64,000 bases of DNA. It comes from Bacilli bacterium. GTDB taxonomy: Bacteria; Bacillota_I; Bacilli_A; RFN20; CAG-288. The stretch spans positions 1-64,000 of the forward strand of contig JALCRV010000012.1 in NCBI GenBank assembly GCA_022652945.1. The letters are read 5' to 3'. Both the position numbers and the translations under genes were made by a program. Positions 2,926 to 8,245 of the stretch are shown in pieces (position 1 is the stretch's first letter; each line of letters starts with the position of its first letter). Below the pieces are notes generated by a model. That model saw only the letters and a list, made by a program, of their open reading frames with translations, was not told where the DNA came from and did no database searches.

Positions 2926-2962
2926 AAGAAAAAAGCCTGAGACTGTGCATGGCCTCAGGCTT
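2926..2962 (-). terminator. Attenuator terminator in front of the tyrosine-type binding protein gene
   Basis: On the minus strand a 9-bp stem (AAGCCTGAG with CTCAGGCTT) is followed at once by a run of T. It sits between the leader peptide and the binding-protein ATG, so it must be read through for expression. A second hairpin, CCTTGG/CCAAGG at 3001-3033, lies upstream. The GGCCT just after the leader stop codon can pair with the AGGCC in the terminator loop, a possible antiterminator. Confidence 0.85.
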
Positions 2963-3063
2963 ACCTATCTGGAAATCATGTTTCAAACTGGTTCAGTCAG
3001 CCTTGGCGATGCGTTTTATGCTTCTTACCAAGGTTTGAATCGTTTGTTCTTACCGTTCAGGCC

Positions 3064-3147
3064 TTATGAAAGAAGCTCCTTTTTAAAGCAGTAGCGGTAA
3101 TAGTAATAAGAGGTGACGATTAAAGTCGCATTTAGTTGACGCTTCAT
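3064..3147 (-). CDS. Tyrosine-rich leader peptide of the transporter attenuator
   Basis: This 27-codon ORF has an excellent ribosome site (AGGAGG, 10 nt before the ATG). It reads MKRQLNATLIVTS, then four consecutive Tyr codons (TAT TAC TAT TAC), then Arg, Tyr, Cys, Phe and KKELLS stop. Five of 27 codons are Tyr. The ORF is followed by competing hairpins and an intrinsic terminator, the arrangement of ribosome-mediated attenuators such as those of his, phe and trp operons. Starvation for charged tRNA-Tyr would stall the ribosome and favour read-through into the importer operon. The last codons and the sequence around the stop codon match those of the tryptophan leader at 4398-4445, so the two are probably duplicates. 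Confidence 0.85.
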   Translation of the reverse strand: MKRQLNATLIVTSYYYYRYCFKKELLS

Positions 3148-3174
3148 TTTCGCTTTTCCTCCTGTTATGAGAAA

Positions 3175-3203
3175 AATATAAACCTTTAGAAAATAGAATG
3201 CAA
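3175..3203 (-). promoter_or_regulatory. Sigma-A type promoter of the tyrosine leader transcript
   Basis: On the minus strand, TTGCAT (3203-3198) and TATATT (3180-3175) are separated by exactly 17 nt. The predicted start lies a few bases before the leader ribosome site, which makes the leader transcript short (about 270 nt to the gene). The -35 region resembles the promoter of the tryptophan leader. Confidence 0.7.
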
Positions 3204-3248
3204 CTCTTTTTTGAAAATGAGAGGCGGTTACTGAAACTTCCTGATACG

Positions 3249-4238
3249 TTATTCATGGATAATTACCCCATTCCCCAAGGGGGCTAAATCGGAAGGAAGG
3301 GTATAGGCCGTCTCTTTAAAATAGCTGTCGTTGATATATAGATTGTAGACTTCTGATTTTTCACAAGGAATCGTTTCTGTTTTTTCTCCTTTTAAAATAC
3401 GAGCAGCAAGTTTTCCAGTCTGGATACCTAAGGAATAATAATCTGTGGCATACCCTAAAGAACCACCGTTTTTAATCTCCGAGGCATCCCCGCAGACAGC
3501 GAGGACAGAATGCTGAAGGATTTTTTCTTTAATTGAAGCCATAGCAGCAGCTACCGTATTATCTACCGGGATAAATAATCCTTTAATTCCTTGCCCAATC
3601 ATGCCTTCTAAAGTCGACTCCAATTCGGAAGTAGAAGAAAAGCCACCGTCGACCAAAGTAAGATTAAGTTCTTGGCAAGCGCTTTTGGTCTCTTCGAATT
3701 GAACGATAGAGTTTGGCTCTGTCAGATTATAAAGGATCCCGATTTTCTCGATGCCCTCAAATTTCTTAAATAACTCAATGTTTTTATAAGTGGGCCCGGC
3801 ATCGGAAGTTCCGACGATGTTAGCGTGTTCTGTAAAAGACTTCACCAATCCCGCCTTGACTGGATCTGTTACTGCGCAGAAAACTAAAGGCAGATCATCC
3901 TTATTTACGTCTTCGATAGAAGTTTTCAAGGCTAAAGCTGAAGGGGTAGCGATTCCGCAGACCAACTGACAATTATCTCTTAAATTAACCGCCATAGAGT
4001 TCTGAGTGGAAGCATCTCCTTCCGGATTCATAATCGTAAAGCTAACGTTATTATCTTCTTCGTATCCTCCTTGTTTCATCCCGGCGATAAAACCTGTTCG
4101 GCAGAGATTAAGCCCATCGTGGGTGACAAACTGTAAGATACCGACTCTAGGTAAAGAAGAGGCGGAAGAGGTAAACGAGCAGGAAGCTAATAAAAGAGAC
4201 AGCGATGCAGCAGTAAGCAACAAGATATGTTTTTTCAT
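3249..4238 (-). CDS. Second aromatic amino acid binding lipoprotein (TrpX-like), probably tryptophan; no own permease
   Basis: This 329-residue lipoprotein is a paralogue of the protein at 1902-2894, with matching blocks GILQFVTHDGLNLC, CGIATPSALALK, VFCAVTDPVKAGLV and IGQGIKGLF. The lipobox is LASC near residue 20. The ATG at 4238, preceded by AAAGGA, was chosen because it starts the signal peptide; an earlier in-frame ATG at 4298 would run through the terminator hairpin. No permease or ATPase follows. The gene ends about 100 nt before the tyrosine leader promoter. Its leader carries tandem Trp codons, so tryptophan is the likely ligand, delivered through the permease of the neighbouring operon. 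Both points are inferences. Confidence 0.85.
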   Translation of the reverse strand: MKKHILLLTAASLSLLLASCSFTSSASSLPRVGILQFVTHDGLNLCRTGFIAGMKQGGYEEDNNVSFTIMNPEGDASTQNSMAVNLRDNCQLVCGIATPSALALKTSIEDVNKDDLPLVFCAVTDPVKAGLVKSFTEHANIVGTSDAGPTYKNIELFKKFEGIEKIGILYNLTEPNSIVQFEETKSACQELNLTLVDGGFSSTSELESTLEGMIGQGIKGLFIPVDNTVAAAMASIKEKILQHSVLAVCGDASEIKNGGSLGYATDYYSLGIQTGKLAARILKGEKTETIPCEKSEVYNLYINDSYFKETAYTLPSDLAPLGNGVIIHE

Positions 4239-4270
4239 GATTTTTATTTCCTTTATGTTTTCCGGGGACA

Positions 4271-4302
4271 AAAGAAAAAGCCTTGGCTGATACGCCAAGG
4301 CT
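4271..4302 (-). terminator. Attenuator terminator in front of the tryptophan-type binding protein gene
   Basis: On the minus strand the stem AGCCTTGGC/GCCAAGGCT (9 bp, 6-nt loop) is followed by TTTTTCTTTT. The 5' arm repeats sequence present in the upstream hairpin at 4324-4363, so the CGCCAAGG segment there can pair either with its own partner or with the terminator 5' arm. This is the mutually exclusive pairing expected of an attenuator. Confidence 0.87.
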
Positions 4303-4323
4303 TCAGATAAACTTTCTTCAATC

Positions 4324-4363
4324 CCTTGGCGCTCTCAATTACGAGGACTTCGTTTCGCCAAGG
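4324..4363 (-). promoter_or_regulatory. Competing hairpin of the tryptophan attenuator
   Basis: GCCTTGGCG and CGCCAAGG form an 8-bp stem on the minus strand. The second segment is also complementary to CCTTGGCG in the terminator 5' arm, and its CGCC can pair with GGCG just downstream of the leader stop codon. Which pairing wins under ribosome stalling needs a folding calculation. Confidence 0.65.
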
Positions 4364-4397
4364 CTCGGATAAGTCAGAAGAGACTGTATTTTCGCCT

Positions 4398-4445
4398 TTA
4401 TGAAAGAAGACCTGCACTGAGGCGCCACCAATTGATCGATGACAT
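4398..4445 (-). CDS. Tryptophan leader peptide of the attenuator (tandem Trp codons)
   Basis: This 15-codon ORF reads MSSINWWRLSAGLLS stop, with two adjacent TGG codons at positions 6 and 7. A ribosome site AAGGGA lies 5 nt before the ATG. A longer in-frame start at 4469 exists but lacks a well-placed ribosome site. Tandem Trp codons, a short leader transcript, alternative hairpins and a terminator before the structural gene are the hallmarks of trp-type attenuation, which in Firmicutes is usually replaced by T-box or TRAP control. The ending LLS-stop and the flanking CTTCTTTCATAA are shared with the tyrosine leader. Confidence 0.87.
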   Translation of the reverse strand: MSSINWWRLSAGLLS

Positions 4446-4498
4446 AACAGTCCCTTTGTTTTCTCTCATTATCGGTTTCTCTTGCTCCCGGATGTTTA

Positions 4499-4528
4499 TA
4501 TTTAACAACTTAGAAGAGAAGAATGCAA
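4499..4528 (-). promoter_or_regulatory. Promoter of the tryptophan leader transcript
   Basis: On the minus strand, TTGCAT (4528-4523) is followed after 17-18 nt by TTAAAT/TAAATA. The sequence GTTGCATTCT with a following pyrimidine-rich stretch is shared with the tyrosine leader promoter at 3175-3203, which supports duplication of the whole control region. The upstream exporter gene ends at 4539, so the full leader must fit in about 250 nt. Confidence 0.6.
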
Positions 4529-4538
4529 CCATCTTAGA

Positions 4539-6359
4539 CTAGACGTAATACTTGGCTTGTTCGTTAAACATCGTTGCATAGATGCCTTTTTCATCCTTCA
4601 TCAGGCTCTGATGGTCGCCTTCCTGGATGATATGGCCTTTATCGAGGACGATAATATGATCGCAGAACTTCGTGGAAGACATACGGTGAGAGATAAAGAC
4701 GGAAGTGCGGTCATTAACTAGCTTTTCAATAGACTGATAAACCGTTAATTCGCTTAAAGGATCAAGGGCAGAAGTTGGCTCATCAAGAAGGATGATAGGA
4801 GAGTCTTTATATAAGGCTCTCGCTATAGCAATCTTCTGGGCTTCACCACCGGATAATTCAGTTCCGTCTTCGATATAGTTATAAAGATAGTTATCTAATC
4901 CATGAGGTAGTTTCTTGATGTTGTTATAGTCGTACCCGGTTAAATCTAAACACTTTTTGACTTTCTCTTCATCGATGTCATTTGCGGAGGCGGCGACATT
5001 TTCTTTTAACTTAAAGCCGAATAAGGAGAAATCCTGGAAGAGAATTCCAAGGACTTTTTGATAAGAAGCGAAGTCAAAAGTATCAATGTTCTTGCCATCG
5101 TAATCAATCTCACCTTTTTCAGGGAGGTAGAAACGAGCGATTAGTTTGATAATGGTTGATTTACCAGCTCCGTTACGCCCGACGATACCTAGTTTCTTCT
5201 TAGGATCAATCCGGAAGGAGACATCTTCCAAGGCGTAAGTATCGGTGTTTGGATATTTGAAGTAGACATGCTTGAATTCAATAATCCCTTTGGAATCTGC
5301 TGAGACTTTTTCACCTTTATCATCTTGATCTTCCGCCTCGATATAGGCGAAGTAATTGCTTATGTACTTTAATTGCAGCAAGGTCTGAGCAATCCCTCCC
5401 ATGGTGTTGCCTAAAGAATCAGCGAAAGTGGAGATAGCTCCGACTAAAGAAATAATGGCGCCGACCGAGATGATACCGTAATAGGCTTTGGCTCCGACAT
5501 AAAGATAAGAACATAAGAGAATGAGGGAGTTAGCTGCGGTCACAAGGGCGTTGATCCAGCCTTCAATCCTGCCTAGTTTTCCATAGCGTTCCTTCATGAT
5601 TGCCCCTTGGCCATCTAGAATCGATCCGAAGAGGTCTTTCAAACGATATATACGAATATCCTTGGCGTAACGGTAATCTTCCATGATGGTATAAAAATAA
5701 CTGTAGCGTCTATTGATATTGGTGTTTTCTAGATAGAAGGTATACATCACCTTGTTAATGATAGACATCAGGAATACGGAGATGATAACCATAAAGACAA
5801 TAAGACCGATGATGACTAAGAAAGAATAAGGATTGTTAAGGAAATTGAACCAGGGATCGCTGCTGGTTTTATCGATAGAGATAAAGGCTTGACGGAAAAG
5901 GATGACGGAATAGATAACCGTCATAACACCTTTAAATACCGAGCTTAAAGAGACATTGATTAAGCTGGCAAAACTTCCGCTGCCGTTAGCCCCTTCTTCC
6001 GCTTTGGTTAGGATAGCTTTTAAATCTTTGCTCTCTAACTTACCGTAACTTAGCGATAAGGCCTTATCAGCGATAAGAGTTTTTAACTTCTCGTTAAGAG
6101 TTTCGGATTCGGCGTTCTGATAGATAATTGAAATTCTGGATAACAGAGTAAGCAAGGTAACTAAACTGATTAGAAGGATGGCAACTTTCATGGTTTCTTC
6201 ATAAGAGGATCCATTTAGAAGCATATCCAGAATCTTCCCACCGAAATAAAAGGAGACGAAAGGAATCGCCGGAGAAGTGATATCTTCGATTAAAACGGCA
6301 AAGGTGAATAATGGAGAAAGCTTAAATCCATATTTTAAAGCCTTAAATAACGTTTTCAT
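4539..6359 (-). CDS. ABC exporter half-transporter (TM domain fused to ATPase), second subunit of a heterodimer
   Basis: About 606 residues: a six-helix transmembrane domain in the first 340, then an ATPase domain with Walker A GRNGAGKST, signature LSGGE, Walker B IILLDEPTSALD and the switch histidine in FISHR. It should act as a membrane exporter or flippase with the half-transporter upstream. The ATG at 6359 was chosen because an AAGGAGG lies just before it; the first possible start at 6422 is deep inside the upstream gene. The chosen ORF overlaps the partner by 17 nt. The substrate cannot be told from sequence; peptides, lipids and drugs are all possible. Confidence 0.88.
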   Translation of the reverse strand: MKTLFKALKYGFKLSPLFTFAVLIEDITSPAIPFVSFYFGGKILDMLLNGSSYEETMKVAILLISLVTLLTLLSRISIIYQNAESETLNEKLKTLIADKALSLSYGKLESKDLKAILTKAEEGANGSGSFASLINVSLSSVFKGVMTVIYSVILFRQAFISIDKTSSDPWFNFLNNPYSFLVIIGLIVFMVIISVFLMSIINKVMYTFYLENTNINRRYSYFYTIMEDYRYAKDIRIYRLKDLFGSILDGQGAIMKERYGKLGRIEGWINALVTAANSLILLCSYLYVGAKAYYGIISVGAIISLVGAISTFADSLGNTMGGIAQTLLQLKYISNYFAYIEAEDQDDKGEKVSADSKGIIEFKHVYFKYPNTDTYALEDVSFRIDPKKKLGIVGRNGAGKSTIIKLIARFYLPEKGEIDYDGKNIDTFDFASYQKVLGILFQDFSLFGFKLKENVAASANDIDEEKVKKCLDLTGYDYNNIKKLPHGLDNYLYNYIEDGTELSGGEAQKIAIARALYKDSPIILLDEPTSALDPLSELTVYQSIEKLVNDRTSVFISHRMSSTKFCDHIIVLDKGHIIQEGDHQSLMKDEKGIYATMFNEQAKYYV

Positions 6360-8193
6360 TTTCGCTTCCTCCTTCTTTGTAATAATGAGCTTGGACTTGG
6401 AAGACTTTCTTATATTCTCCATTCAATTTCATCAGTTCTTCATGGGTTCCTTCTTCGATGATATGACCGTCTTTTAAGTAAAGAATCCTGTCGCAGAAGC
6501 GGGTGGAGGAGAGACGGTGAGAAATAAAGAGAGAAGACTTGCCTTTAGTCAGCTCCCCGTATTTTTGATATAGTTCGCCTTCCGCGATCGGGTCTAAAGC
6601 GGAAGTCGGTTCATCAAGCATCAGTAAAGGCCCGTTCTTATATAAGGCTCTAGCCAGCATTAGTTTCTGCATTTCGCCACCGGAAAGCATTATTCCACTG
6701 TCGTCGAGGTTCTGAGTTAAGACGGTATCTTCTTTCTTGGGAAGGTTGTCGATCTTCTCTTTTAAACCGGCCTCCTCAATCGCCTTCATGAGTTTGGCCT
6801 TATCAATCTTTTTATCATCGAGCGTGCAGGCGATATTGCCTTTGATGGAAACTCCGATAACTTGGACATCCTGGTTAATAACGGAAAGGAGAGAATAATA
6901 ATCATCGATATTGAATTCATCTAAATGATGGCCATCGATCAGAATCTCGCCTTCGGTGGGCATATAGAATCCGGAGAGGAGTTTGATGATCGTAGTCTTG
7001 CCAGCTCCGTTTTCTCCGACTAAGGCGATCTTCTCCCCGGGGGAGACTTTAAAAGAAAGATGGGAAATAGTCGGTTTACTAGCATCCTTATAGGTGAAAG
7101 ATACATCTTTAAATTCGATAGTCATCGGCAGAGGAAGCGAAGTAATATTAAGACCCTTACCTGTATTGAATTGGCTATCAGCATCTAAGAAAGCAATTAA
7201 GGCGGAGACTTCTTTAGAAGAAGTCAGTAATGAGAAGATTTCCGAGCCCAGCAATGTCAGATATGTCGAGATTCCGTTAATCACGGAAATCATTAAAGTA
7301 AATTGGGCAGCGGAGACGCTCTTATCAACTACGAAACCTTTGATTAAAAGGGAATAGGCTACAAAGTCTCTAAAATAACCGAACAAGGAATCGGAAAGAT
7401 TGGGCAGGAAAAACAAAGAGTGCTGAATTAGCTCGTATTTTCCAAACAACGCCACCTGCTTGTTCATCAAGGAATTGAAAAGATAGGCTAGGTGATAATT
7501 TCTGATATCCTTACCCTTCAGTTCGTCTTTCGAGATGTCATAGACATAATTGATTTTGTTTTCTGCTTTAGTAATAGGATCCAGATATTTTTCAAACTTA
7601 ACAGAGGCGAAAGCGGATAACGCCAGATTAACAATTACCATCCCGAGAAGAATCAGAACAACCTGATAAGAAATCAATGAGGAAGTAGAGATTAAAACAA
7701 TCAAGCCACCGAAACTGATCAGGATGGTCGGGACATGCTTAAACATTCCTTCCACTCCGATCCAGTTGCTGCCGGTCGCATATAAGCCTTTGGCTCTCTT
7801 TTCCTTGCCTTCTTTGCTTTCGTAGTAATCATAGTCGCAACTTAGGCATTTCATAAAAGACAGCTTCATAACAGCGATACAGCGGATGAATGTTTGATCC
7901 CAGTTCAATGTAGAACGCTTCATTTCTTGATAAATCTGAAGGAGAATATAGACTCCGAAAATAATTGAAACCCACATCGCAAACTGACCGAAATCTTTAT
8001 GGTCGGTCAAAAAATAAACCGCTAATGAAGGAATTGTTAACAAAGTCATGGGCAGAACAATAGATATGAGAATAAAAAGAGGCAGTGTCAGACAATAACG
8101 CTTAGAGTAATTCCAAGCATTTTTATAAACGAACTTTAAACTTTTGTTTAAAGATTGAATCTGATTCGGCTTTTTTGATTTTGCTTTTTCCAT
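6343..8193 (-). CDS. ABC exporter half-transporter, first subunit of a heterodimer
   Basis: About 616 residues with the same layout as the overlapping downstream gene: six membrane helices, then an ATPase with Walker A GENGAGKTT, signature LSGGE, Walker B LLMLDEPTSALD and the switch histidine in FISHR. The presumed start is the ATG at 8193 with a weak ribosome site; an upstream TTG at 8220 is possible. The two genes overlap and were probably translated as a unit to give a heterodimer. No substrate gene, such as a bacteriocin precursor or accessory protease, was seen beside it. Confidence 0.88.
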   Translation of the reverse strand: MEKAKSKKPNQIQSLNKSLKFVYKNAWNYSKRYCLTLPLFILISIVLPMTLLTIPSLAVYFLTDHKDFGQFAMWVSIIFGVYILLQIYQEMKRSTLNWDQTFIRCIAVMKLSFMKCLSCDYDYYESKEGKEKRAKGLYATGSNWIGVEGMFKHVPTILISFGGLIVLISTSSLISYQVVLILLGMVIVNLALSAFASVKFEKYLDPITKAENKINYVYDISKDELKGKDIRNYHLAYLFNSLMNKQVALFGKYELIQHSLFFLPNLSDSLFGYFRDFVAYSLLIKGFVVDKSVSAAQFTLMISVINGISTYLTLLGSEIFSLLTSSKEVSALIAFLDADSQFNTGKGLNITSLPLPMTIEFKDVSFTYKDASKPTISHLSFKVSPGEKIALVGENGAGKTTIIKLLSGFYMPTEGEILIDGHHLDEFNIDDYYSLLSVINQDVQVIGVSIKGNIACTLDDKKIDKAKLMKAIEEAGLKEKIDNLPKKEDTVLTQNLDDSGIMLSGGEMQKLMLARALYKNGPLLMLDEPTSALDPIAEGELYQKYGELTKGKSSLFISHRLSSTRFCDRILYLKDGHIIEEGTHEELMKLNGEYKKVFQVQAHYYKEGGSENENVI

Positions 8194-8245
8194 AAAGTGA
8201 GCTTCTTTCGATGAGAACAATATAAAACGTTTAAGGAAGAGAAAA

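Follow-up and report, generated by a model that had tools for sequence, protein, structure and literature searches.

Leader peptides that sense histidine, tryptophan, phenylalanine, leucine, isoleucine, valine or threonine are textbook knowledge. The trp, his and pheA attenuators of E. coli combine, as is generally known, a short open reading frame (ORF) of cognate codons, alternative hairpins that depend on the ribosome, and an intrinsic terminator. Counterparts of these elements lie upstream of two genes for substrate-binding proteins of an ATP-binding cassette (ABC) transporter in the stretch analyzed here (the window), 64,000 nucleotides of contig JALCRV010000012.1 (assembly GCA_022652945.1) from a Bacilli bacterium of the family CAG-288, order RFN20, with a genome of 2.09 Mb that is 92.7% complete. 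Each leader is very probably a ribosome-mediated transcription attenuator that turns its binding-protein gene on when tyrosine (Tyr) or, for the second leader, tryptophan (Trp) runs short. In contrast to the E. coli systems, the window leaders would include one sensing tyrosine, govern uptake rather than synthesis, use five pairing segments instead of four and belong to Bacilli and not to Proteobacteria.

Predicted leader-peptide attenuation in Gram-positive bacteria includes histidine leaders in Bacillus (PMC2965389) and in Peptostreptococcaceae and Erysipelotrichales (PMC9413887), as well as uORFC-13-1, a phenylalanine (Phe) candidate of Acholeplasma aroF (PMC8632094). These precedents qualify an initial sequence-only reading of the window, which took such attenuation to be typical of Proteobacteria and Firmicutes to rely mostly on T-box or TRAP for these amino acids. 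They differ from the window leaders in the amino acids and genes concerned, and comprise neither a tyrosine leader nor binding-protein transporters of this kind. The open-access literature searched (most subscription journals lay outside this scope) yielded no account of a tyrosine leader peptide, as the same reading had supposed, and the tyrosine version of classical ribosome-mediated attenuation is apparently undescribed. Premature termination controls the same transporter family in Streptococcus suis, where the trpXYZ genes carry a Trp T-box (PMC9382623), but the T-box senses tRNA directly and has no leader peptide. The trpB motif (RF04312) was published as an orphan riboswitch candidate; in Lactobacillales it appears to be the 3′ part of a Trp attenuator located before the same transporter family or trpB. 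The RNA sRNA_2410 (RF02863) is catalogued as a free small RNA (sRNA). The window RNAs match neither model.

Leader peptides and their conservation

The gene order along the minus strand, on which all window features given below are located, is Trp leader, binding protein BP2, Tyr leader, binding protein BP1, permease and ATPase. The Tyr leader (MKRQLNATLIVTSYYYYRYCFKKELLS, 3064 to 3147) has 27 codons with the core SYYYYRYC, and the Trp leader (MSSINWWRLSAGLLS, 4398 to 4445) has 15 codons with the core NWWR; both translations are exactly those of the sequence-only reading. YYYY is present in just one of the roughly 2390 short ORFs that the window contains, and the leader codon runs are not a product of chance. 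A good ribosome binding site (RBS) had been assigned to both leaders. This holds for AGGAGG of the Tyr leader (3158 to 3163), but AAAGGGA of the Trp leader (4451 to 4457) is only a moderate match. The Trp frame stays open further upstream, with an alternative possible ATG at 4469. The candidate promoter of the Tyr leader, TTGCAT-17-TATATT (3175 to 3203), agrees with the consensus at 8 of 12 positions, and its TTGCA is common to all four leaders of the family (the two of the window and those of loci L003 and L004).

Within the family (23 genomes) a BP1 orthologue occurs in two other genomes. Both have a Tyr leader, with the ends DYYRYYYFRKNLLS and FYYYYYYFYGKKLLS, terminating in LLS like the window Tyr leader. 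Among 279 genomes of the order, 79 have a homologue. Of 71 upstream regions, 62 contained a short ORF with a stretch of eight residues of which five or more are Tyr/Phe; the same pattern was seen in 7 of 71 regions when the opposite strand was read and in 62 of 710 shuffles. Two further leaders at contig-end loci, one of them containing eight consecutive Tyr codons (MQKLSKTTKYFNESVSYYYYYYYYLRENRVDSTILT), bring the count to 64 of 69 assessable loci, nearly all from the same order; L079 and L107 are not counted among the 69 as they have too little upstream sequence. Four of the five leaderless loci have a T-box with an apparent UGG (Trp) specifier as judged by eye, and the fifth, the distant homologue L005, has neither a leader nor a T-box upstream. 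The T-box loci are L131, L136, L138 and L143, so that a single gene family of the order alternates between two sensing systems.

The length of the peptide, its start, its flanking residues and its C-terminus drift freely in the order, and the aromatic run alone is kept, a pattern that had been anticipated from the window. Tyr is encoded by both TAT (187 codons) and TAC (101 codons), indicating that it is the amino acid that is retained. The pairing segments diverge fast while the codon runs persist; the reverse case, loss of the run with retention of the hairpins, was not seen among the loci examined. A putative tyrosine leader is near-universal before this transporter in the whole order. The hallmarks of an attenuator, namely a short ORF with an RBS, a conserved cognate run and a terminator, are all found with the Tyr leader. 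For Trp the cognate run exists as a single copy in the window family and its conservation is that of Enterococcaceae (20 of 20). Searching relatives with the leader peptide as query returned the window alone because the query is too short. A pattern search of the window's own genome for further copies of the Trp leader gave zero hits, but its gap was set so short that the known copy would be missed too, and the zero says nothing on their absence.

Pairing segments and ribosome position

Five segments can be distinguished in each unit. In the Tyr unit, segment 1 (GCTTCTTTCATAAGG, 3062 to 3076) overlaps the end of the leader and its stop codon, segment 2 (CCTTGGTAAGAAGC, 3020 to 3033) can pair with 1 or 3, and segment 3 (CGCCAAGGCT, 2999 to 3008) can pair with 2 as an anti-antiterminator or with 4 as an antiterminator. 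Segments 4 (2952 to 2962) and 5 (2933 to 2943, followed by a T-run) are the 5′ and 3′ arms of the terminator as defined by terminator scan and folding. The Trp unit has the same arrangement, with segment 1 (CTTCTTTCATAAAGGC, 4394 to 4409) defined by alignment and folding, segment 2 (GCCTTGGCGAAACGAAG, 4348 to 4364) by folding, segment 3 (GCGCCAAGG, 4324 to 4332) by folding with the ribosome in position, and segments 4 (4293 to 4304) and 5 with its T-run (4277 to 4287) again by both terminator scan and folding. The Tyr terminator (2933 to 2962) has a folding energy of -17.9 kcal/mol (z -4.1) and the Trp terminator (4277 to 4304) one of -19.7 kcal/mol (z -5.7). An intrinsic terminator separates leader and gene in 55 of 58 leaders checked, usually 56 to 112 nucleotides past the stop codon.

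Each leader would be transcribed and translated, and would respond to starvation in the following way. A shortage of charged tRNA-Tyr (or tRNA-Trp) would stall the ribosome on the codon run, with its leading edge a few bases before segment 1. Segment 1 could then pair with 2, leaving segment 3 free to pair with 4, so that no terminator would form and the binding-protein gene would be transcribed. With an ample supply of the amino acid, the ribosome would reach the stop codon and cover segment 1, the pairs 2:3 and 4:5 would form and transcription would end. In the window family the last Tyr or Trp codon is located 21 to 27 bases upstream of the stop, a spacing at which a stalled ribosome would leave segment 1 free and one at the stop codon would cover it.

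The free folds of the stalled transcripts of both window leaders consist of 1:2 and 3:4 (z -2.6 and -3.0), which agrees with the competing hairpins proposed by the sequence-only reading. The 1:2 pairing is maintained despite base changes in the four sequences compared by eye. It is formed by GCUUCUU/AAGAAGC plus AAGG/CCUU in the window Tyr leader, by CUUCUUUC/GAAACGAAG plus AAGGC/GCCUU in the window Trp leader, by AACUUCUU/AAGAAGUU plus AAGGUUU/AAACCUU in L004 and by AACCUUC/GAAGGUU in L003. Across 57 leaders the mean sequestration of segment 3 is 0.71 with the ribosome at the stop codon, 0.41 with the ribosome stalled at the last Tyr and 0.43-0.47 in shuffles, the rows being related sequences whose p-values overstate their independence. 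In the window it rises from 0.31 (stalled at the last Tyr) to 0.74 (at the stop) for the Tyr leader and from 0.22 (stalled at the last Trp) to 0.83 for the Trp leader. The equilibrium probability of the antiterminator is 0.76 in the stalled state versus 0.61 at the stop, and the co-transcriptional measure separates the two states better than this probability alone. In the modelled folds there is a mutually exclusive antiterminator whose formation depends on the position of the ribosome.

In the E. coli trp operon, transcription terminates when the leader is not translated. Without a ribosome, segment 3 of the window leaders is sequestered at 0.74 and 0.73, which suggests, as a weak prediction, that an untranslated leader would likewise terminate. 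Segment 3 seems to be missing from the Tyr attenuator of the relative L115 owing to a deletion of some 45 bases, though the gap may come from an error in assembly; such a loss should lock the attenuator in the terminated state.

Binding pockets and the origin of the pair

BP1 (1902 to 2894) and BP2 (3249 to 4223) are substrate-binding lipoproteins that match the PF04392 (ABC_sub_bind) profile with 171 and 190 bits (cut-off 25.9) and are 52% identical, confirming that they are paralogues. BP1 shares its operon with an ABC permease (PF02653, 936 to 1895) and an ABC ATPase (PF00005, 139 to 939), assigned by profile match. BP2, under the Trp leader, is not accompanied by a separate permease or ATPase gene ahead of the Tyr-leader operon and for this reason probably shares the transporter of that operon.

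Among the solved relatives, CD0873 of C. difficile binds Tyr (Glu-263, Tyr-279), VC_1101 Phe (Ala, Tyr) and SP1069 Trp (Ala, Gln-284) (PMC6816091). The tyrosine-binding CD0873 (6HNI) is the closest solved relative of BP1 and shares the equivalents of Thr-237 and Tyr-279, but its Glu-263 is Asp in the window family. With its Thr/Asp/Tyr pocket BP1 is a predicted tyrosine binder. In relatives, the residues at the two specificity positions correspond to the codons of the leader: in the order, proteins under a Tyr leader have Glu or Asp plus Tyr in 24 of 24 cases (and E/Y and D/Y by eye at the two contig-end loci with leaders), enterococcal Trp-leader proteins Val or Ala plus Gln (20/20), enterococcal Tyr/Phe- and Phe-leader proteins Ser or Ala plus Tyr (32/32), and the proteins under a Trp T-box Ala or Val plus Tyr (4/4). 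Leader codons and pocket residues, which indicate specificity independently of each other, thus concur, with BP2 of the window as the exception.

The protein tree places BP2 together with BP1, L003 and L004 (100/99) within the Tyr-leader clade of the order (98/99), separate from the enterococcal Trp protein. The alignment of the two window control regions beats 300 of 300 shuffles. They share the stretch CTTCTTTCATAA, followed by GGCC in the Tyr unit and AGGC in the Trp unit; the sequence-only reading had the stretch right and placed GGC after it in both, one base out of register. Since BP2 is nested in the Tyr-leader clade and the control regions can be aligned, the simplest account, as that reading had proposed, is that the Trp unit arose by duplication of control region and gene with a change of codons from Tyr to Trp. 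The Tyr version would be ancestral in the order. BP2 branches at the base of the family, and the duplication may thus be older than this genome, with losses elsewhere.

Lactobacillales relatives and rival explanations

Leaders of three types are found in Enterococcaceae: Tyr/Phe (ending in YYFSYFR), Phe (FFFSFFR) and Trp (WQNWRR). In Enterococcus alishanensis there are four paralogues, whose leaders end in QYYYSYFR, RFFFSFFR, RYYFSYFR and RWQNWRR. Further enterococcal genes of the Trp group carry a WQNWRR or WQxW leader in 20 of 20 cases, and those of the Tyr/Phe group have a Tyr/Phe-rich end (YYFSYFR, AYFSYFR or FFFSFFR) in nearly all cases examined, L026 being the only one in whose upstream region none was found. 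The enterococcal Phe proteins form one clade (100/100) among the Tyr/Phe-leader proteins. Mixed leaders (YYFSYF; L014, L020-L033) accompany Ser/Tyr pockets, a hint that the proteins concerned accept Tyr as well as Phe. Across 21 Trp leaders of enterococci, helix 1:2 is paired in 98.8% of cells, and the conformation 1:2 plus 3:4 contains 13 compensatory cells versus 4.4 in shuffles (0/500), all of them in 1:2. Helix 2:3 is paired in every one of the 21 but hardly varies and is therefore little informative.

The trpB motif was described as a strong riboswitch candidate, although its authors could not exclude a classical attenuator (PMC11109978). It starts at segment 2 of the enterococcal Trp leader. 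The motif is found in 160 of 295 Lactobacillales genomes at an E-value of 0.001, with 52 above the family cut-off, and the enterococcal Trp leaders L047 and L049 reach its gathering score. Among the best 30 Lactobacillales loci, 26 have an ATG with an RBS and at least two Trp codons in an ORF ending just upstream, compared with 10 of 1770 other positions. Because of this enrichment RF04312, at least in Lactobacillales, can be read as the 3′ portion (segments 2-5) of an attenuator with a Trp leader. In 392 genomes from the window's phylum the motif gave five weak matches only, two of them clearly spurious (L067 and L069). The unit of Trp leader and RF04312 precedes trpX-type transporter genes and genes reading as trpB (L047, L049, L178, L185 and L189), the trpB-like genes being those of L178, L185 and L189. 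One attenuator type seems to control both uptake and synthesis. The family RF02863 is matched at or above its gathering score by enterococcal Tyr/Phe leaders; it covers the end of the leader, the hairpins and the terminator region of that attenuator and also overlaps Phe leaders. The sRNA_2410 itself is a 195-nucleotide RNA from E. faecium RNA-seq and belongs to the experimentally followed sRNAs (PMC5593968). Its simplest reading would be a terminated attenuator transcript.

It is likely that a single kind of attenuator for aromatic uptake has spread through the Bacilli and has been re-targeted repeatedly, mainly by its codons (with Tyr as the target throughout the order, a change from Tyr to Trp in the window and one from Tyr to Phe in Enterococcus), with RF04312 and sRNA_2410 as pieces of it and not a riboswitch and an sRNA. 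This likelihood concerns the kind of switch and does not extend to a common descent of the RNA between the window's order and Enterococcaceae. The leaders would form a natural series with a constant switch and a changing sensed amino acid, matched by a code of two pocket residues, making the evolution of regulatory specificity traceable in both RNA and protein. T-boxes and leader peptides are seen to replace one another on one gene family. The most consequential by-product is the reading of the two Rfam families, which offers a simple and testable answer for an orphan riboswitch candidate and for an unexplained enterococcal sRNA.

Arrest of the TnaC type is switched on when the amino acid is in excess, and the gene it serves is one for degradation. 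A nascent leader peptide that itself responds to free amino acid inside the ribosome tunnel in this way, in place of codons that sense tRNA charging, would fit the Enterococcaceae peptides, whose ends are strongly conserved beyond the aromatics (QLNNRYYFSYFR, SWQNWRR). It is an improbable explanation, however, as an uptake gene is concerned and as the peptides of the window's order have only aromatic runs in common, with varying lengths, flanks and C-termini. Translation reinitiation, which has been put forward for leader peptides in general terms (PMC4833913), or general growth-rate sensing would make the leaders real but not specific for an amino acid. Both are hardly credible since the leader stop is far from the gene start with a terminator in between, and since the leader codons correspond to the kind of pocket in the protein encoded after them.

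That the RNA is a riboswitch or T-box binding its ligand or tRNA directly, with the short ORF incidental, finds some backing in the conserved sequence of the published riboswitch candidate (PMC11109978) and in the T-boxes that control four homologous genes in the same order. It is nevertheless very improbable. No Rfam family was matched at cut-off in the window and neither leader has a T-box sequence, a riboswitch has no need of the two-Trp leader with RBS present at 26 of the 30 best RF04312 sites, and in the order the segments diverge fast while the codon runs stay. Two classes were rejected for the window leaders. For a T-box, which has a stem I with specifier and the sequence TGGNACCGCG, there is no Rfam match in the window and no such sequence in either leader; the same genome has T-boxes elsewhere. 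For a TRAP-binding leader, the longest chain of (G/U)AG repeats at 2-3 nucleotide spacing is 1 (Tyr) and 2 (Trp).

The cognate codon runs, as their conservation in relatives strongly supports, argue for ribosome-mediated attenuation, against which several observations must be set. Although a promoter had been claimed ahead of each leader, both fall below the cut-off of a consensus scan of the window, which would imply weak promoters, and inspection revealed no clear -10 upstream of the Trp leader. The Trp leader has no orthologue among the relatives searched. Its equilibrium antiterminator probability is 0.72 both stalled and at the stop, and the switch emerges only when the order of synthesis is modelled. 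The ribosome was simulated by masking the RNA it covers, and the foldings are equilibrium estimates. In relatives whose leader ends in YR the Tyr run lies very near segment 1 and the modelled effect is small. Finally, the pocket of BP2 has Asp and Tyr as in Tyr binders, without the Gln of Trp binders, despite the Trp leader. BP2 does have Val at the position of Thr-237, which is next to the residues around the Tyr hydroxyl in CD0873, and Thr is kept in 56 of 56 comparable Tyr/Phe-leader proteins. Since the pocket is still mostly of the Tyr type, a switch of BP2 to Trp as ligand is unproven. The earlier proposal that the paralogues answer to different amino acids thus fits the leader codons and is unproven for the ligands.

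Directly upstream of the Trp leader, two adjacent genes for ABC exporter half-transporters are located on the same strand (4539-8220). At L066:1420-1900 and L068:1420-1900, Tyr-rich leaders (MNSTLTNLYDYSYYC and MNSNLTTRFYYSYYC) followed by hairpins resembling the trpB motif precede a BrnQ-type (PF05525) transporter, which, given these leaders, may carry tyrosine.

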